From Candidatus Schekmanbacteria bacterium (GTDB lineage: Bacteria > CSSED10-310 > JACPHN01), in contig JACPHN010000041.1 in the NCBI GenBank assembly GCA_016188575.1, positions 1-64,000 on the forward strand: DNA of 64,000 nucleotides. Direction: 5' to 3'. A program made the translations under genes and the position numbers. Shown piece after piece: positions 55,445 through 64,000 of the stretch. The notes beneath the pieces were generated by a model that made no database searches, was not told the DNA's origin, and saw only the letters and a list, made by a program, of their open reading frames with translations. The number at the start of each line of letters is the position of its first letter. Position 1 is the stretch's first letter.

Positions 55445-55993
55445 TTGAGCACCGACGTCCAGGAACGTCTGATTAGCGCCGACGAGTTCGAGCGCATCGC
55501 GCACCGATACGGTCGCTCCGAGCTCATCGATGGGAGGGTTGTGGAGTTGCCGCCCGCAGGACTTGAGCATGGCGCTATCGAAAGCAGCATCAGCGCAATA
55601 CTGCGCGCCTTCATCCGCAAACACAGGCTCGGCTATGTTGGAACCGGCGAAGTAGGCTGCAAGCTGCCAAGCGGCCGCGTTCGTGCTCCAGATGTGTTGT
55701 TCGTCCGCCAGGACCGCCTCAAGGATGTTCAACTACGACGGTTCCTCCCCTTCGCCCCCGACCTGGCGGTGGAGGTGGTGTCGCCGGACGACAGCGCCAG
55801 GGAGGTTCGCGAAAAGGCCAGCGAATGGATCGCCGCCGGCTCCGAGCAGGTCTGGGCAGTTGATCCCGGAACCTGCACCGTCACCGTCTACGAGCGCGGC
55901 GTGCCGCCCCGCGTGTGCGGCGAAGGCGCGACGGTGGACGGGAGCTCGATCCTGCCCGGCTTTTCCTGCCCCGTGGCCGAGATCTTCGCCTAG
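55445..55993 (+). CDS. Uma2-family endonuclease-like protein
   Basis: The product has 182 residues from TTG 55445, eight bases after GAAAGGAG; an upstream in-frame ATG lacks such a site. The fold is PD-(D/E)XK. Landmarks are the start DEFERIAHRYGRSELIDGRV, LPSGRVRAPDVLFVRQDRL with the active-site Asp, DLAVEVVSPDDSAREVREKA with the Glu and Lys, and EQVWAVDPGTCTVTVYERG. The family is often multicopy in large genomes and its function is unknown, although a restriction-like nuclease activity is predicted. It stands alone. Confidence 0.9.
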   Translation: MSTDVQERLISADEFERIAHRYGRSELIDGRVVELPPAGLEHGAIESSISAILRAFIRKHRLGYVGTGEVGCKLPSGRVRAPDVLFVRQDRLKDVQLRRFLPFAPDLAVEVVSPDDSAREVREKASEWIAAGSEQVWAVDPGTCTVTVYERGVPPRVCGEGATVDGSSILPGFSCPVAEIFA

Positions 55994-55994
55994 C

Positions 55995-56085
55995 AGGGCA
56001 GCGGCCAGATGCTGTCGTTCGCCGCGATCAAGAATGGCCACCACGCACCGCGTATCCAGCAGCACCGGCCGCCTTTCGCGGCGCC
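55995..56085 (-). pseudogene. PIN-domain (VapC-like) N-terminal remnant
   Basis: The minus strand encodes RPVLLDTRCVVAILDRGERQ followed by HLAAAL. This is the first strand and helix of a PIN-domain toxin, where the consensus is L-L-D-T-x-x-x-V-A-L-L-D-R-x-E-x-H. Only about 25-30 residues are kept, and no antitoxin gene lies beside it. It is antisense to the upstream region of the beta-helix gene. Confidence 0.5.
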
Positions 56086-56093
56086 GTAGCGGG

Positions 56094-57686
56094 ATGCCCG
56101 CGATCGTGGTTTCCAGGCGTCGCCGCTCACCCGCATTCGTCTCCGCCTGCCTGCTGCTTGCAGGCGTCTCGCTGACAGCATGCACCAGTGGTCCGGCCCT
56201 GCCCCCGCCCGCGGAAGCCAGTCCCGAGCCGCGCGCCTTTCTTGGCGGGGCTCCGTTTCCCGCCCTCACCCTCACACGCCTGCCGGGCCAGGCGCCCCCC
56301 TACCTCGGCGCGCCGTCCCCCCGGCGGGAGCTCTTCGCGGCGCCGTCGCTGGCAGGACCGGGCGACGGCAGCCGAGAGTCGCCGTGGACCGACCTGCGTG
56401 GAGCGCTTCGCCGGCTAGAACCAGGCGACCACCTCACGCTACTGCCCGGCGTGTGGACTGCGGCTATGCACCTGGACGAGCACTGCCGAAACGGCCTTCC
56501 CGAGGCCCCGATTCGCCTCTCCGCCGCACCGCGCTCGCGCCTGGTGCCCCCCGAGGGCGCGCGGTTCGGGCTGTTCGTCGAGCGCTCCTTTTGGGCGATC
56601 GACGGCATCGAGGTGTCACCCACGGGCGCCGGCACGGTCGCCGTGCTTGTCCATGACGCCCAGAACGTCCACCTGTCACGCTGCTTTCTACACGACGGCA
56701 AAGCCAACGGGCTCGTGATCGGCCCAGGCGCCCGCAACGTCACCGTAGAGCAATGCGAAATCAGCGGCTTCCAGCGGGGCTCCGCCGACGCGCACGGCGT
56801 GACGATCCTGCCGGCCACGACCGGCATCCGCTTGGAGAACAATCACGTTCACCACAACTCCGGCGACTCCGTGCAAATCGTCGGCCCCGAGCAGCTTGCC
56901 ACCGACCCGTTCGATCCCCGCCACCTGCCTCTCAAACCTGCGCGCGACATCACCGTGCGCGGCAACCGGATGCACGAAGACCGAGAAAATGCGGTGGACA
57001 TAAAGACCGCCACAGACGTGGAGATCTCGCAAAATCGCATCTGGGGCTATCGCCCAAGCTCTGGCTCGCGTTTCGGCGAGGCGGTCGTCGTCCACTATGG
57101 CGCGACCAACGTAACGGTCCGCGAAAATCTTGTCGCTGGCGCTCATACCGGGATCGTCGTCGACCGCGGCACGCTTGCCGGCCAACCCGCCGCGGCACTA
57201 CCCCGTCAAATCGTCCTCGAACGGAATTACTTGCGCGGCGATGCCCGCGCCGACACGGCCATTTTCGTGATCGACTCGGAGCGCGTCGAAGTCCTCCACA
57301 ACGTCATCGAGGCCTACCCGACAGCGCTGGTTTTTCTCGGAAGAGACGGCCGAAACCCGCGTCACGTCGCCGTCAACAATCTCGCCATCGACCCCTCGCG
57401 CCTGGCGTTCCGCGCCTCGCGGCTCGCGGATGTCGCGCGTTTCGAGCATAACGTGTTCGCGCTTTCCGGCTCCGAGCTCCGGTGTCGCGTCGGACGGCAA
57501 ACCGTGCCGTTGCGCTCCGTGCTCGCCGAGGGCCTCCTGCCAGCAACCGTCATCGCCGGCTCGGTTCACGTCCCGGGCGGCGACCTCGACCGGATCGCGG
57601 GCGTCAGCGTCATTGACCGAGGAGCCCCCATTCCGGGGCGGAACTTCCTGGGAGCCGCGCCCGACATCGGGATCGCGGAGCACTGA
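56094..57686 (+). CDS. Right-handed parallel beta-helix lipoprotein
   Basis: The product has 530 residues from ATG 56094; ATG 56034 is in frame and would add 20. A lipoprotein signal is visible (FVSACLLLAGVSLTACTS). From about residue 90 the chain has beta-helix coils with Asn/His ladders (NVHLSRCFLHDGKANGLVIG, NVTVEQCEISGFQRGSADAH, GIRLENNHVHHNSGDSVQIV, DVEISQNRIWGYRPSSGSRF). The family includes carbohydrate-binding or polysaccharide-degrading proteins and adhesins. No catalytic motif of pectate lyases was identified. The protein is likely in the outer membrane or periplasm. Confidence 0.8.
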   Translation: MPAIVVSRRRRSPAFVSACLLLAGVSLTACTSGPALPPPAEASPEPRAFLGGAPFPALTLTRLPGQAPPYLGAPSPRRELFAAPSLAGPGDGSRESPWTDLRGALRRLEPGDHLTLLPGVWTAAMHLDEHCRNGLPEAPIRLSAAPRSRLVPPEGARFGLFVERSFWAIDGIEVSPTGAGTVAVLVHDAQNVHLSRCFLHDGKANGLVIGPGARNVTVEQCEISGFQRGSADAHGVTILPATTGIRLENNHVHHNSGDSVQIVGPEQLATDPFDPRHLPLKPARDITVRGNRMHEDRENAVDIKTATDVEISQNRIWGYRPSSGSRFGEAVVVHYGATNVTVRENLVAGAHTGIVVDRGTLAGQPAAALPRQIVLERNYLRGDARADTAIFVIDSERVEVLHNVIEAYPTALVFLGRDGRNPRHVAVNNLAIDPSRLAFRASRLADVARFEHNVFALSGSELRCRVGRQTVPLRSVLAEGLLPATVIAGSVHVPGGDLDRIAGVSVIDRGAPIPGRNFLGAAPDIGIAEH

Positions 57687-57790: not shown

Positions 57791-60187
57791 ATGCCGACCT
57801 GCACAGGCCATCGAGCGCGTCCGCGCCGCGCCCTCGCCTTTGTCTTGCTCGCCCTCGCCCTGAGCCGCCCATCCTTCGCCGCCGCCGCGGGCGCGGCCGA
57901 AGGCGGGCCGCAAGCGCGCTCCGCCACGCCTGTAACGCTGCTGCCACCGGTCCTCGAAGGCGCCGCCGGCGTACGCCTCACCTGGTCCGAAGCAAGCGCT
58001 CCCGATTTTTCCCATTACGCGGTCTGGCGATCCGAAACACCGCTTCCCGTTCCGTCGCTGGACCTTCTCGGCGCCGTCCTCGCGGCGCTCGGCGTGACCG
58101 CGGCGCTGCTCGCGCTCCGCGTCGGGCACCGCGCTCACCCGGTGCGGCGGCGCGTCGCCACGGCCGCAATTATTGCCGCCCTGGTCGGGCTCTGGGTCAT
58201 CACCGCCGAGCAGGCCTCCTCGGTCTCCATTGCCGATCTGCCGCCGGCGCCCGGCGAAGGCGTCTGGCTCACGACCATCGACGATCGCGCCACGACGACC
58301 TACCTCGACTCGGCCGTTCCCGCAGGAGTTTATTTCTACCGCATCTACCTCTTCACCACCGGCGACGACATGGTGTCGTCCAACGAGCAACCCTTCTACG
58401 ATCTCGCACCGACGCCGACGCCGACTCCGACCGAAACGCGAACCCCCACGGTGACTCCGACCGCCACCCGCACACGCACGCCAATCCAGTCACCGACCCC
58501 GTCGCCGACCATCACGCCCACGTCGATCCCCACCATCAACGCCAACCTGTACCTTGCCGAGCTACGGCTGACACAAGCGACCGACATCGGTCTGTCTCCC
58601 AAGGCCAACCTCGGCGCCGTTACCGTCCCGCGCATCGCCGGCCGGACCGCCGTGGTCCGCGCGTTCGTCGGTGTCAGCGGCTACAGTTACCTCGTTGATT
58701 CCGTCTCTGCTCGGCTGCGCGCCTACAGCGGCGGCGACGAGCTTTCCGGATCGCCGCTTGTGGCATCGATCGACAAGCTGCCCGAATCGGCCAGTGAAGC
58801 GGCGTGGAGCGACTCGATCAACTTCACGATTCCTTCGGGGTGGCTGGAAGAAGGCACGAGCTTCGTTCTGGAGATCGACCCGGACAATGCCTACGCCGAG
58901 ACCGACGAGACCGACAACCGAGCTCCTGGCTCGGGCACCACGCCCTTCGAGCTCGTGTCCACTCCCGATCTGGATCTCATGATCGTGCCGGTCACGCATG
59001 CCGGCGTACCACCTGACAGCGCCGCCTTCGACGATGTGCAGGACTGGTTGCAGTGGACCTATCCGGTCCCGGACGTCAGCAGGCAGATCCATAGCTCGGT
59101 GACGTACTCGGGGCCGCCCGTGAGCAGCGATGGCACGAACTGGGATGCGGTTCTCGACTTCGTGACCGACATCCGCGGGATGGAGACATCCGCGCCGAAT
59201 CGGTATTACTACGGTGTTTTTTATCCGGGATACGACTACGGCGTCGTCGGTCTGGGGTGGATGCCGTACTATCCATCCAGTCCGTTGCCGGTGGCCGTGG
59301 GCACGGATCGCTCGTTTGCCGCGGGGGAGACGGGAGCACATGAAATCGGCCACAATCACGGCCGGAGGCATGTGGCGGCAAGCGGCAGTGGTTGCGGGAC
59401 GCCGTCCGGTACCGATGCAAGCTACCCGTACGCGAACGGCATCATCGGCGTGGTGGGTTGGAGAGCCGGCGCTACGGAGCTTTACGGCAAGGCGGCCTAC
59501 AGAGACTATATGAGCTATTGCAACACGACGTGGATATCTGATTATAACTACAAGGCCTTCTACGACTGGGACGCCTATTATAACTCCGCCCGCGGGAGCG
59601 CAGCGCCGAACCCGACCTCCGAGCGCGTCTACTATCTGTCGGGTGTTGTCCGTGCTGGGCGCGCGACGACGACGATGGCGGCCGAGCTCAGGGACCACGC
59701 GCCAACACCCGACGAGGGCGCGCTCGTGCTTGAGCTGCTCGACGCCAGCGGCGGCGTCGTTGCCCTCCACCACGCCGCTTCGGCACCTGCCGACCACATC
59801 ACCGGTGTCAGCGCGTTTCAGGTCAAGGTGGCGCTGGGCCGCGGCGTCGCCGTGTCTGGTTACCGGCTCAGCAGCCAATCGGGCGCCGTCCTCGCGGAGG
59901 AGATGCGGACCGGGAAAGCGCCGGAAGTCACGCAGCTCGCGGCGCGGCGCAGCGTCGGGGAAGACATCGAGATATCCTGGAGCGATTCCGTGGGCAGGGG
60001 CGGGCTCGCCGTGGTCATGACCGATACGGGCCCGGATGGGAGTTTCGAGGTCAGGGCAATCGGCGCCAACACCGGCTCGGCGCGCCTTCGCGGAGGGGTG
60101 GGCGAGCTTGCCGCTCGGCATGTTAGCCGCCTGCGCCTGCTGGTGTCGGACGGAGCTCGCAGCACCATCATGGAACGTCCGCTGTAG
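57791..60187 (+). CDS. Secreted metzincin-type zinc protease with internal membrane helices and Thr-Pro linker
   Basis: The product has 798 residues from ATG 57791 after AAGGAG. A signal peptide (LAFVLLALALSRPSFAAAAG) precedes an FN3-like domain (GVRLTWSEASAPDFSHYAVW). That domain is interrupted by two hydrophobic helices (LDLLGAVLAALGVTAALLAL; VATAAIIAALVGLWVITAEQ), an unusual arrangement. A Thr-Pro linker spans about residues 207-245. A CARDB-like beta domain follows (FVLEIDPDNAYAETDETDNR). The protease motif HEIGHNHGRRH gives zinc ligands His517, His521 and His527 with Glu518; the later YRDYMSYCNTTW has the Met-turn. A beta domain closes the chain. The ECF sigma gene starts 14 bases later. 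Confidence 0.82.
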   Translation: MPTCTGHRARPRRALAFVLLALALSRPSFAAAAGAAEGGPQARSATPVTLLPPVLEGAAGVRLTWSEASAPDFSHYAVWRSETPLPVPSLDLLGAVLAALGVTAALLALRVGHRAHPVRRRVATAAIIAALVGLWVITAEQASSVSIADLPPAPGEGVWLTTIDDRATTTYLDSAVPAGVYFYRIYLFTTGDDMVSSNEQPFYDLAPTPTPTPTETRTPTVTPTATRTRTPIQSPTPSPTITPTSIPTINANLYLAELRLTQATDIGLSPKANLGAVTVPRIAGRTAVVRAFVGVSGYSYLVDSVSARLRAYSGGDELSGSPLVASIDKLPESASEAAWSDSINFTIPSGWLEEGTSFVLEIDPDNAYAETDETDNRAPGSGTTPFELVSTPDLDLMIVPVTHAGVPPDSAAFDDVQDWLQWTYPVPDVSRQIHSSVTYSGPPVSSDGTNWDAVLDFVTDIRGMETSAPNRYYYGVFYPGYDYGVVGLGWMPYYPSSPLPVAVGTDRSFAAGETGAHEIGHNHGRRHVAASGSGCGTPSGTDASYPYANGIIGVVGWRAGATELYGKAAYRDYMSYCNTTWISDYNYKAFYDWDAYYNSARGSAAPNPTSERVYYLSGVVRAGRATTTMAAELRDHAPTPDEGALVLELLDASGGVVALHHAASAPADHITGVSAFQVKVALGRGVAVSGYRLSSQSGAVLAEEMRTGKAPEVTQLAARRSVGEDIEISWSDSVGRGGLAVVMTDTGPDGSFEVRAIGANTGSARLRGGVGELAARHVSRLRLLVSDGARSTIMERPL

Positions 60188-60201: not shown

Positions 60202-60729
60202 ATGCCTGACGTTGACATCAGTGAGCTCGTGCGGCGCTACGGACCGATGGTGTTTCGCCGCGCCCGCTACCTGCTCGGCAACGACGCGGAGGCCCAGGAT
60301 GCGGTGCAAGAAGTCTTTGTCCGGCTGGTCAACAAGATCGACTCCTTCCGCGCGGAGAGCCAGCCGTCGACGTGGCTCTACCGGATCACGACGAACTACT
60401 GCCTGAACCTCATCCGCGACCGCGGACGGCGCCGGGAGCTTCTCGAGCAGCATGCGACGAGCACGGAGGATGACCCGGACCCGGGAGCTCCGGATCCCGA
60501 GCTCATGGCACTGATGCGCCGGCTGCTGGCCGCCGCCGATCCGCTGCAGGCGCAAGCGGCAATCTACGTCCACGTGGACGGCATGAGCCACGCCGAGGCC
60601 GCGGCGCTACTCAACGTGTCTCGCAGAACGGTGGGTAACCTGCTCGAACGCTTCGAGAAATGGGCGCGGCGCAACCTGGAGGGGCTCGTGCCCAACAACG
60701 CAGCCGGCGGGTCTAACTATACGAAATGA
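60202..60729 (+). CDS. ECF-type RNA polymerase sigma factor
   Basis: The product has 175 residues from ATG 60202. Region 2 reads YGPMVFRRARYLLGNDAEAQ, DAVQEVFVRLVNKIDSFRAE and TWLYRITTNYCLNLIRDRGR, and region 4 reads DGMSHAEAAALLNVSRRTVG. There is no region 3, as usual in ECF factors. Its last four bases (ATGA) overlap the start of the membrane anti-sigma gene. It probably transcribes this operon itself, but a -35/-10 pair in the upstream coding sequence could not be identified with confidence. Confidence 0.95.
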   Translation: MPDVDISELVRRYGPMVFRRARYLLGNDAEAQDAVQEVFVRLVNKIDSFRAESQPSTWLYRITTNYCLNLIRDRGRRRELLEQHATSTEDDPDPGAPDPELMALMRRLLAAADPLQAQAAIYVHVDGMSHAEAAALLNVSRRTVGNLLERFEKWARRNLEGLVPNNAAGGSNYTK

Positions 60730-61550
60730 GTAACCTGGACTATTCAAAGCTGTCGGGCAAGAACCCGGATTGTCCCTCGGAGCTGCTGCTGGATCGGTTC
60801 CACGGCGGTGAGCTTCCCAGCGCAGAAAGCGCCGCAGTTGAACGGCACAGCGCGCAGTGCCCGGCCTGTACGGCCAGGCTGGCGCTGCGGCAGCGCGGCG
60901 CTGCGGCTTTCCCCGCGCTGCGGCTGGACGAGGTCGCCGATAAGTGCGTGCGCCTGGACGCGCAGCGCCGCGTCTGTAGAACCTACCGCAGCTCGGTGTG
61001 GCAGCGCTTTGCGGAGCGGCTCTCGGCGACCAGGCGCGTGCACCTGAGCTGGATCGCGGCCGCGGCGACCGCCGCCGCGGCCATCTTCGTGGCGCTCCTG
61101 CCGCAGCTTCGTCACGATGGCGGCATCGACGGGACCGGAATCCACATGAAGGGCGGCCCCCGGCTTCACGTCGTGCGCGAGCGCAGCGGTGCCGTCGCCG
61201 AGCTGGCGGACGGCGAGCTCGTGCGTGCTGGTGATCGGCTCCAGTTCCGAGTCGATCTCCCGGCGGACGCAGAAGTCATGGTGGTTGGCGTCGAATCGTC
61301 CGGCGCGATTTACCCGTGTTACCCGCTCGGCGCGTCCGGCTCCACAGCGGCGCGCGCCGGTGCCGGCATCGCGCTGGCAGGCGCCGTCGAGCTGGACGAC
61401 AGCGCCGGCGACGAATACCTTCATCTCGTCGTTTGCCCGCGCCACTTTGCCCTGCACAACCTTTCGGCGCCTGCCCGAGGAGCCATGGCTGTCGCCGGTG
61501 GAGACGGGTGTCGGAGTGACTCCATCCACATCGTGAAGGAGGTACCGTGA
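60726..61550 (+). CDS. Membrane anti-sigma factor with zinc-binding N-terminus
   Basis: The product has 274 residues. The N-terminus is a zf-HC2/ZAS-type motif (ERHSAQCPACTARLALRQRG, H-x-x-x-C-x-x-C) that should hold the sigma factor. A membrane helix (LSWIAAAATAAAAIFVALLP) separates it from a periplasmic domain of about 150 residues (LADGELVRAGDRLQFRVDLP, AEVMVVGVESSGAIYPCYPL) resembling DUF4384. DUF4384 often occurs with caspase-type or FHA proteins. The periplasmic part probably senses envelope state. The GTG start of the caspase gene overlaps its stop. Confidence 0.9.
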   Translation: MSNLDYSKLSGKNPDCPSELLLDRFHGGELPSAESAAVERHSAQCPACTARLALRQRGAAAFPALRLDEVADKCVRLDAQRRVCRTYRSSVWQRFAERLSATRRVHLSWIAAAATAAAAIFVALLPQLRHDGGIDGTGIHMKGGPRLHVVRERSGAVAELADGELVRAGDRLQFRVDLPADAEVMVVGVESSGAIYPCYPLGASGSTAARAGAGIALAGAVELDDSAGDEYLHLVVCPRHFALHNLSAPARGAMAVAGGDGCRSDSIHIVKEVP

Positions 61551-63154
61551 GGGCGGTGCGCCTGGTTAGCCCGGCGGCGGTCGCGGTCACCGTAGTCCTG
61601 CTGCTGGTCGCCACGGCGGACGCCGCCGCCGGGACGCGCGTGATTGCGATCATCGCCGGCAACAACGCCGGCACCGCGGACGACGCCGCGCTCGAGTTCG
61701 CGGAGCATGATGCCGAGGCACTCGCGGCGGTGCTGCGCAAGCTCTCCGGCGTCGCTGCACACGATGCCGTGCTGCTGCTCGGTGACCAGGCCGAAGATCT
61801 CAGAAATGCCTTGCTGCAGACCAACGTGCGCCTGCGCTCGCCGCTGCGCGATCCAGGCCAGGACGTCACCATCCTCATCACCTACTACTCTGGACATGCC
61901 GGGCCTGATGGGCTACACATGTCGGGGACGGTGCTTCCTTTCGAGGAGCTCAAGGCACTGGTGGCCGGCTCGGCGGCCTCCGTACGCGTGCTCATCGTCG
62001 ACGCGTGCCGCAGTGGAGGTATCACCCGTGTAAAGGGCGCGCGCGCGGCGGCGCCATTCGACATCGCGATGGAAGACCGCATCACGGCGGAGGGACTCGC
62101 CATCATCACCTCGAGCACCGCCGGGGAAAACAGTTATGAATCGCAGAGCCTGCGCGGCTCTTTCTTCACGCACCACCTCGTAAGTGGGCTGCGCGGTGCC
62201 GCCGACACCGACCGCGACCGGCGGGTGACGCTTGCTGAGCTGTATGACTATGCGTACCGCCAGACGCTGCAATCTTCCGGGAGCACGTCATCACTGCAGC
62301 ATCCGACCTTCCTGTATGAGATCAAGGGGCGAGGCGAGCTGGCGATCGCACGACTCGATCGCGATGTGGAACGGATGGCGACGCTGCAGATCGCCTCGCC
62401 GGGACGATATCTGCTGCGCGATCGCGCGGAAGACGGTCCGATCGCCGCTGAAGTCGAGATTTCGGAGAAGGGTGCTGACATTGTCCTGCCGGCAGGGGAA
62501 TACTTTGTCCAGCACAGGGGCAAGGCTGCGTTTCGGGAGTACGGGGTCGCTCTGAACAGCCGCGCCGCAGTCGCGCTCGAAAAGTTGCCGTTCCGCGAAG
62601 TCACGTACGCCCGGCTGCTCCGCAAGGGTGGCGGCGAAAGACGCGCCGTCCACGGTTTCTATGCTTTGGCGGCCGGACGAGGCGAAACGCTGGACCGCGA
62701 AGGCCCGACTGCGCACGCCGTGCTCGGATATTCTCTGGATCTGCCCTGGCTTACCTGGGGTGGGCGGTTTCGCTATGCGGACCGCAAATCGACGCTCGCG
62801 GGCGCCAGCCTCGAGCAGCGGCACACAGAGTTGGCCTTCGGGCTCACGGCTCAGCGCTACGTCGACCTGAATCGCATCAGCCTCGCGCTCGGGCTCAGCG
62901 CCGAGGCGGTGCGGCACGAGCAGCGCTTTTCCGGCCCCGGACGGGCGCCGGCGCGCGCCGCGTGGGGATCGGCGTTTGGCGGGCTTCTGGGGGTGGAGCT
63001 GCAACTGGCGCCGCGCCTTGTAGCGCGTGTCGAGCTCGGCCCGATGACGACGACGTTCACCCGCGCCATCATCGACAACGGCGCCCCAGCGGGCAGCGAA
63101 ACTGCCTCGGTCTTCACGTGGTGGCTGGCGACCGGTTTCGGGTGGCGTTTTTGA
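61547..63154 (+). CDS. Exported caspase-like peptidase fused to an outer-membrane-like beta-barrel
   Basis: The product has 535 residues. A signal peptide (SPAAVAVTVVLLLVATADAA) leads to a caspase p20-like domain (about 30-245). His117 lies in LITYYSGHAGPDG and Cys154 in VLIVDACRSGG; both catalytic residues are kept. Residues about 255-355 are a beta-sandwich (GRYLLRDRAEDGPIAAEVEI, LPAGEYFVQHRG). From about 360 on the chain alternates as short strands with aromatic ends and closes LATGFGWRF, a C-terminal Phe typical of beta-barrel outer-membrane proteins. Location would be periplasmic with an outer-membrane anchor. The gene overlaps the anti-sigma gene by four bases. Confidence 0.82.
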   Translation: MRAVRLVSPAAVAVTVVLLLVATADAAAGTRVIAIIAGNNAGTADDAALEFAEHDAEALAAVLRKLSGVAAHDAVLLLGDQAEDLRNALLQTNVRLRSPLRDPGQDVTILITYYSGHAGPDGLHMSGTVLPFEELKALVAGSAASVRVLIVDACRSGGITRVKGARAAAPFDIAMEDRITAEGLAIITSSTAGENSYESQSLRGSFFTHHLVSGLRGAADTDRDRRVTLAELYDYAYRQTLQSSGSTSSLQHPTFLYEIKGRGELAIARLDRDVERMATLQIASPGRYLLRDRAEDGPIAAEVEISEKGADIVLPAGEYFVQHRGKAAFREYGVALNSRAAVALEKLPFREVTYARLLRKGGGERRAVHGFYALAAGRGETLDREGPTAHAVLGYSLDLPWLTWGGRFRYADRKSTLAGASLEQRHTELAFGLTAQRYVDLNRISLALGLSAEAVRHEQRFSGPGRAPARAAWGSAFGGLLGVELQLAPRLVARVELGPMTTTFTRAIIDNGAPAGSETASVFTWWLATGFGWRF

Positions 63155-63236: not shown

Positions 63237-64000
63237 ATGAGCGACTATCGGCTTCTTGGCAAACGCTTCGTGCGCGCGATGCGTCTGCGCTATCTCTCGG
63301 CACTCGGGCTGCTGGGCGTGCTTGCGATCTTCAACTACGCCGGGATGGCCTCCGCCATTCGCGGGCATCGAGTGGACGCGGAAATCGTCAATATCAGCGG
63401 CCGCCAACGCATGTTGAGCCAGCGCATCATAAGCGCCGCGACGATGCTCGTTCATGGACCGCCCGCTCAGCGGTCCAGTGCGCGCACAGAGATCCTCGAG
63501 GCTGCAGGTAGCCTGCTGGAGAGCCAGGCCATCCTCTCCAACCTGGCGCCCGCGACCTTTCACGCCTCATCGCGTGAGGCCGCACCGCCGCTTGCAGACG
63601 CGGTTCGCGCCTTCGTGGCCCGGGCCCGGGCGCTCGCGGAGCTCTCCGACGCGCACCTGTCAGAAGGTGTTGGTGGCGGGCTGGCGGAGCAGCAAGCCGC
63701 CGCGGCGCAGCTTCTGGTCCGACTGGACGGCGCCGTCGGCGCCTATCAGGCGATTGCGGACCAGCGCGTAGCGGAGCTTGGGCGGGAGCACCTCAGTGCC
63801 CTGCTCACGACCCTCGTTGTGCTCGGCGCCCTCGGTCTCGCAGTTTTTCGCCCCATGAGCCAGCGGGTTCAACACGACGTCGACAGACTCGTCGGTCTCA
63901 CGGCGCAGACCGAAGTGCAGGCGAACGCCATCGGCCGAGCCTATCAGGAGCTGCAGAAAGAGGCCGCCGACAGGCGCAACGCTCAGGATGCGCTGCGGGA
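63237..64000 (+). CDS. PilJ-type membrane sensor (3' part outside window)
   Basis: About 254 residues are visible from ATG 63237 (start uncertain, weak ribosome-binding site). The first helix (YLSALGLLGVLAIFNYAG) is followed by AEIVNISGRQRMLSQRIISA, the hallmark of the type IV pili methyl-accepting/NarX-type sensing domain. A second helix (LSALLTTLVVLGALGLAVF) lies near residue 185-205, then a coiled coil (VQANAIGRAYQELQKEAADR) that usually leads into a histidine kinase, PAS domain or cyclase. It is 82 bases after the caspase gene and could sense the same signals, but cotranscription is not shown. Confidence 0.8.
   Translation, partial: MSDYRLLGKRFVRAMRLRYLSALGLLGVLAIFNYAGMASAIRGHRVDAEIVNISGRQRMLSQRIISAATMLVHGPPAQRSSARTEILEAAGSLLESQAILSNLAPATFHASSREAAPPLADAVRAFVARARALAELSDAHLSEGVGGGLAEQQAAAAQLLVRLDGAVGAYQAIADQRVAELGREHLSALLTTLVVLGALGLAVFRPMSQRVQHDVDRLVGLTAQTEVQANAIGRAYQELQKEAADRRNAQDALR

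Follow-up and report, generated by a model that had tools for sequence, protein, structure and literature searches.

The FecI-FecR-FecA system comprises a sigma factor, a membrane anti-sigma factor and an outer-membrane barrel with an N-terminal periplasmic domain, all encoded in an operon, and DegS is an inner-membrane serine protease with a PDZ domain that is encoded outside the sigma operon. Caspases are enzymes of animal cell death, and the bacterial homologues are their relatives; caspase-1, -3 and -7 become active when cut in the L2 loop, about twelve residues past the catalytic Cys. To our knowledge, hardly any natural substrates have been identified for the numerous caspase homologues of bacteria.

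In the DegS-RseA-RpoE system of E. coli, a periplasmic site-1 cut of a single-span anti-sigma factor frees an ECF sigma factor (PMC10028731), and a precedent for the cutting of a sigma inhibitor by a caspase-like protease is found in the Csx29-Csx30-CASP-sigma system of type III-E CRISPR, or Craspase, whose caspase-fold protease acts on an inhibitor of an ECF-type sigma factor (PMC10028731). Non-animal C14 members cut after Arg or Lys, and orthocaspases self-process (PMC5756287); in cyanobacterial orthocaspases, a caspase p20 domain and DUF4384 occur together in 23 cases (PMC8283722). The parts of Asplund-Samuelsson et al. 2012 (PMC3501461) drawn on here place four of the five metacaspases of M. 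xanthus in operons with a sigma factor and list operons of a metacaspase with a sigma-70 factor in Anaeromyxobacter, Haliangium and Sorangium as well, and they contain no description of an anti-sigma factor, a barrel or a mechanism.

The locus described here lies in the window, i.e., the whole stretch of 64,000 nucleotides that was analyzed, and is like several of these systems in part. As in FecIRA, a sigma factor, a membrane anti-sigma factor and a predicted outer-membrane barrel with an N-terminal periplasmic domain share an operon, but FecA is a 22-strand TonB-dependent transporter with a signaling domain, and where that system has a TonB-dependent barrel and an STN domain we found eight strands and a caspase domain with protease residues. 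Craspase is a cytoplasmic, RNA-guided CHAT protease with a large soluble inhibitor, whereas here a predicted secreted caspase with an outer-membrane barrel accompanies a membrane anti-sigma factor; in place of a TPR-CHAT protease bound to gRAMP and crRNA, we observe a signal peptide, a caspase domain, a beta linker and a barrel. DegS differs in being a serine protease of the inner membrane, with a PDZ domain and a gene outside the sigma operon, and the likeness in the site-1 cut is suggested here by motif sharing and co-loss. Unlike in the cyanobacterial orthocaspases, where DUF4384 is fused to the caspase, the DUF4384-like part belongs to a separate anti-sigma factor. The sequences suggest a three-gene switch, carried by many soil bacteria of the myxobacterial kind, in which genes would be activated by a caspase cut of an anti-sigma factor, and we did not find such a switch in the literature searched.

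Organization and distribution of the operon

Three genes follow each other in one direction with a 4-bp overlap at each junction (overlap letters ATGA and GTGA), which agrees with an earlier note made from the letters of this DNA:

60202..60729, + strand: ECF sigma factor gene, 175 aa (Pfam Sigma70_r2 4.6e-21, Sigma70_r4_2 6e-7; TIGR02937 sigma70-ECF)
60726..61550, + strand: membrane anti-sigma factor gene, 274 aa (HxxxCxxC, TM helix, periplasmic beta domain, family profile E 1.6e-63)
61547..63154, + strand: exported caspase/outer-membrane barrel fusion gene, 535 aa, GTG start (Peptidase_C14 8e-12; AlphaFold2 pLDDT 89)

The first protein contains sigma-70 regions 2 and 4 only (PF04542 and PF08281, both above the Pfam cut-off), as is characteristic of the ECF sigma factor that had been proposed for it. 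A shared ECF promoter motif (GGAAC...CGT) was not found upstream of the sigma genes.

A scan of GTDB contigs yielded 79 named loci, nearly all of them from Myxococcota. Since the order sigma, anti-sigma, caspase recurs in most of these, the arrangement is above chance; it is also retained in a genome of the same phylum as the window (G001). The source genome has one caspase-barrel protein, and matches were observed in 164 of 193 Myxococcota genomes, usually several per genome, as well as in 15 of 386 genomes of an outside sample (at 1e-20), some of the 15 being Myxococcota. The fusion is thus not a singular case, and an operon unique to the source genome can be rejected, as the family is widespread in Myxococcota. 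In one genome (G064), 17 C14 caspase genes are spread over 8 Mb, several of them within sigma/anti-sigma operons.

The operons in the parts of PMC3501461 drawn on here and the present family are very probably the same, although the loci were not matched one by one. A literature search for peptidase C14 together with anti-sigma returned no match, and one for a caspase-barrel protein found no description. Judged by the literature searched, including those parts, the sigma-caspase operon had already been noted, and the barrel and the link between caspase and anti-sigma factor are new.

The protease domain of the caspase

An alignment of 36 relatives was the basis of the AlphaFold2 model of the caspase protein (mean pLDDT 89, pTM 0.69), which consists of a signal helix (residues 9-23), a caspase fold (29-260), a beta linker (266-353) and then the barrel:

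61547..61618, + strand: signal peptide, about residues 1-24 (helix 9-23, hydrophobic core then ADA-AA; cleavage point predicted)
61895..61897, + strand: catalytic His117 (invariant in 36 relatives)
62000..62008, + strand: Asp152 (acidic specificity residue, C-2) to catalytic Cys154 (both invariant in 36 relatives)
62033..62038, + strand: K163-G164 at C+9/C+10 in an L2-type loop, proposed self-processing site (invariant in 36 relatives; the disordered stretch 163-177 starts there)
62204..62239, + strand: EF-hand-like loop D220-E231 (DTDRDRRVTLAE), possible calcium site (D220 and E231 invariant; Pfam EF-hand_5 in 6 of 36 relatives)
62342..62605, + strand: beta linker domain, residues 266-353 (AlphaFold2 strands)
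62648..63151, + strand: eight-stranded outer-membrane-type barrel, residues 368-535 (AlphaFold2; Foldseek)

The caspase p20 fold is indicated by the match to PF00656 (8e-12) and by the structural alignment of residues 27-273 with caspase-7 and Arabidopsis metacaspase 4 (VIA-align Z of 21.6 and 21.4, respectively), and metacaspases rank top when the protease part is searched with Foldseek. No match was obtained when solved structures were searched by sequence. The His-Cys dyad is retained in all 117 relatives examined (counted by regular expression, with the few misses read by eye), so that His117 and Cys154 had been picked correctly in the earlier note, as had the signal peptide, which is modeled as a helix, and a loss of the dyad among the relatives is not seen. 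Asp152, at C-2, is presumably the residue that lines the acidic pocket in metacaspase structures. Its invariance, together with the K/R found at both of the motifs described below, suggests that the caspase would prefer a basic P1 residue (Lys/Arg).

A subfamily of relatives (L207, L210, L136, L138 and L142) has ATCHSG in place of DxCxSG at the catalytic Cys and a loop without KG; its anti-sigma factors retain TGxKG, and the N-terminus is lipobox-like in L207 and L210.

Barrel and other tails

Eight long strands (368-534) ending in the terminal Phe535 are predicted by AlphaFold2, as expected of a barrel of the OmpA/OmpX/OmpW type, and Foldseek ranks OmpA (2.1e-8), NspA (8.2e-7) and OmpW (3.0e-6) among the matches, along with Ail. 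Strand hydropathy alternates in the expected direction, reaching P < 0.05 in only three of the eight strands. On the model and the Foldseek matches, a soluble tail in place of the barrel is rejected, and the C-terminal barrel with its terminal Phe that had been read from the letters is therefore borne out by structure prediction, the homologues likewise giving no soluble tail in its stead. Such barrels usually have both termini facing the periplasm, so the caspase domain would be periplasmic, tethered to the outer membrane by its own barrel.

The tail past the caspase profile measures about 175-225 residues in most relatives and 400-450 in a second group, which carries GxQxGxxN-type repeats; in L012, L014 and L015, such repeats are followed by a strand-rich C-terminal part, and the anti-sigma factors of the long-tail paralogues L020, L021 and L078 lack the cysteines of the zinc motif. 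In the Arg-Gly clade of caspases, the tails, read by eye, mostly consist of a pair of hydrophobic helices, with no barrel (e.g., the two terminal helices of L193, L197, L200 and L209, with a C-terminal GRF in L193, L197 and L209). Because of these two helices, caspases of this clade seem to be anchored in the inner membrane, a pattern suggesting that the motif may persist when the anchor is replaced, as would fit a substrate in the inner membrane.

The anti-sigma factor and the shared Lys-Gly motif

The window's anti-sigma factor has the zinc motif HxxxCxxC (H41, C45 and C48) and a single TM helix at about residues 107-125. Its Pfam scores lie below threshold for both zf-HC2 (18.4 bits, cut-off 22.2) and DUF4384 (PF14326; 13.6 bits, cut-off 27), and the two domains are matched by 24 and 31, respectively, of the 36 relatives' anti-sigma factors at E <= 0.1, with a best value of 2.3e-8 for DUF4384. 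We therefore keep the label DUF4384-like, the window's score being below the cut-off while the relatives match, and the recurrence of both domains in the relatives is in line with the zinc anti-sigma factor with a DUF4384-like part that had been named before. The linker at residues 128-140 is disordered (pLDDT < 50, AlphaFold2), the first periplasmic strand begins at residue 146, and the Ig-like structural matches of the periplasmic domain are only middling (Z up to 9.0):

61149..61154, + strand: K142-G143, proposed cleavage point between the two, where the disordered linker 128-140 ends (invariant in 36 anti-sigma factors)
61161..61547, + strand: DUF4384-like periplasmic Ig-type beta domain (AlphaFold2 strands 146-271; DUF4384 in 31 of 36 relatives)

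Across 36 anti-sigma factors with a mean identity of 29%, no column but K142, G143 and E230 is invariant, making the juxtamembrane K142-G143 the only invariant dipeptide. The same dipeptide stands nine residues past the catalytic Cys in the caspase, where we observe KG in 94 of 94 distinct loops. For the main clade, KG is paired with KG in 115 of 125 distinct adjacent caspase/anti-sigma pairs. This count is tilted towards a match, since for each anti-sigma factor the [KR]G nearest to the profile column, up to six residues away, was taken as the motif. The ten remaining pairs consist of two extraction failures (L091 at a contig end and L167, misread), two pairs with the loop KG displaced by one, four members of the ATCHSG subfamily without a loop KG, L077 with KSG, and L260, one of the pairs (with L228 and L298) in which KG meets RG. 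In the second caspase clade, RG is paired with RG in 17 of 18 pairs. The K/R switch forms one deep split on the tree, and many independent co-switches from K to R are rejected on this ground; covariation at P3 (Fisher P = 2.3e-4) loses its significance when descent is taken into account. The [KR]G at C+9 was absent from all six other caspases of these genomes that were read.

A natural experiment: loss of the caspase gene

When a caspase-less anti-sigma factor (L205) was used as the query, 30 loci were returned. KG is present in all 23 members of this subfamily that adjoin a caspase, and the Lys is kept in none of the seven caspase-less members, which show PPPAQRT at this column, with Arg-Gly in L275. 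Thirty columns reach at least 90% conservation among the 23; of these, the Lys alone is lost in all seven caspase-less members, and 20 are retained in all seven. The tree, whose backbone is weak, places three switches to the caspase-less state and three coinciding losses of KG, so that the caspase losses amount to at most three independent events.

Four other orphan anti-sigma factors (L203, L204, L303 and L306) retain KG, and each of their four genomes encodes an unpaired caspase: G035 (C50, C41), G107 (993032), G164 (C23) and G077 (C18:112065, 3 kb away). According to whole-genome lists, no unpaired caspase occurs in the genomes of the seven orphans that lost the Lys, distant ATCHSG-type members aside. 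The resulting 2x2 table (4/4 versus 7/7) gives an uncorrected P of 0.003, with fewer than eleven independent events behind it, and one of the genomes compared (G226) has a completeness of only 79%. Orphan anti-sigma-like genes of a second family, L299, L300 and L301 of genus g89, are without KG, and neither a sigma nor a caspase gene was found beside them.

Proposed mechanism and alternatives

Because Lys-Gly is common to, and co-conserved in, caspase and anti-sigma factor, we place the caspase upstream, as the sigma-releasing protease, and infer that it makes the site-1 cut in its own anti-sigma factor and self-processes at the same motif. The simplest account would be that the KG of the anti-sigma factor exists for the caspase, with loop and linker as two substrates of one Lys/Arg-specific enzyme. 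A self-contained envelope signaling unit, in which the caspase cuts itself and its own anti-sigma factor at the shared motif and so frees the sigma factor, is in our judgment the probable function of the operon. In such a unit, the zinc-type anti-sigma factor would hold the ECF sigma factor at the inner membrane, and the exported caspase would insert its C-terminal barrel into the outer membrane, leaving the protease domain in the periplasm. The enzyme, specific for Lys/Arg at P1, would mature by self-cleavage at the (R)xK|G of the L2 loop; its second target would be the (R)xK|G counterpart in the anti-sigma factor, on the linker that joins the TM helix to the DUF4384-like domain. With the chain cut at K142-G143, next to the membrane, the periplasmic domain would be lost, as is typical of the step that precedes site-2 proteolysis, and intramembrane proteolysis of the remaining stub could free the sigma factor. 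Candidate triggers may be calcium at the EF-hand-like loop or a failed barrel insertion that frees the caspase to reach the inner membrane. The cleavage, the order of cleavage, the site-2 step and the regulon are likewise what we infer.

Several observations speak against a site-1 role. With its tether in the outer membrane, the enzyme would have to act on a site that lies about 20 residues away from the inner membrane; the K/R split is single, the covariation at P3 disappears on the tree, the caspase losses number three at most and there are exceptions (L275, L077, L228, L260 and L298); the anti-sigma factors of the ATCHSG subfamily keep KG although the caspase loop has none; and the search for a common ECF promoter motif gave none. 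A more specific version, in which the caspase combines the roles of sensor and dedicated site-1 protease, parked by barrel insertion and, when insertion fails, reaching the inner membrane, processing itself and cutting at [KR]|G, as a class found in most Myxococcota and some other phyla, is tentative and in its full detail doubtful.

The earlier note had proposed an envelope-stress circuit that raises a periplasmic caspase anchored in the outer membrane. The circuit with such a caspase is the natural reading of an exported caspase with an intact dyad, a barrel and an ECF/anti-sigma operon, and this part stands; a role as output only fares less well, since the shared Lys-Gly suggests upstream action. 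If the caspase were output only, another protease or a ligand would act on the anti-sigma factor, the sigma factor would raise the caspase, the caspase would act on other periplasmic proteins (in repair, remodeling or cell death), and the KG of the anti-sigma factor would be structural. The gene order would suit this, the caspase coming last, as a target might, but a structural KG should not match the sequence of the caspase's own loop, nor should it vanish from otherwise conserved domains exactly where the caspase is missing, and we regard this alternative as unlikely. Docking without cutting, with the linker as a pseudosubstrate in the caspase active site so that the caspase is inhibited by the anti-sigma factor or keeps hold of it, would fit the shared motif and the co-loss equally well, and invariant P1 and P1' residues suit an inhibitor as well as a substrate; the retention of the dyad throughout the relatives argues against it, as does the position of the motif, since disordered linkers beside a membrane seldom harbor inhibitor loops, and we consider docking decidedly improbable. 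A third, trypsin-like protease cutting both the caspase zymogen and the anti-sigma factor at the same basic site would explain why two proteins of one operon have a basic-Gly motif in common, but it is very improbable, as the anti-sigma motif disappears with the caspase and not with another protease, and the caspase has an acidic Asp of its own at C-2.

If the site-1 reading is true, a substrate, an exact cut site and a purpose would be named for a family that ranks among the largest of secreted caspases, and caspases would count among the few proteases by which ECF sigma factors are released across the envelope. It would also link the L2-loop self-processing of animal caspases to a bacterial signaling switch, and a bench test would be possible in genetically tractable myxobacteria.

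Neighboring genes

Upstream of the operon, at 57791-60187 (+), lies the gene of an exported 798-aa protein that matches CARDB weakly and contains HEIGHNHGRRH, a metzincin zinc motif. This gene and the sigma gene are 14 bases apart and may be transcribed together; a place as a conserved fourth member of the operon was rejected, as a homologue is absent near the operons of relatives. The downstream gene at 63237-64000 (+) has an N-terminal PilJ-type sensor domain (PF13675, 4.2e-9) and probably encodes a separate signaling protein. Further upstream, the ORF at 55683-57686 (+) resembles a secreted parallel beta-helix protein, with a repeated N-x-V-x-x-N pattern.
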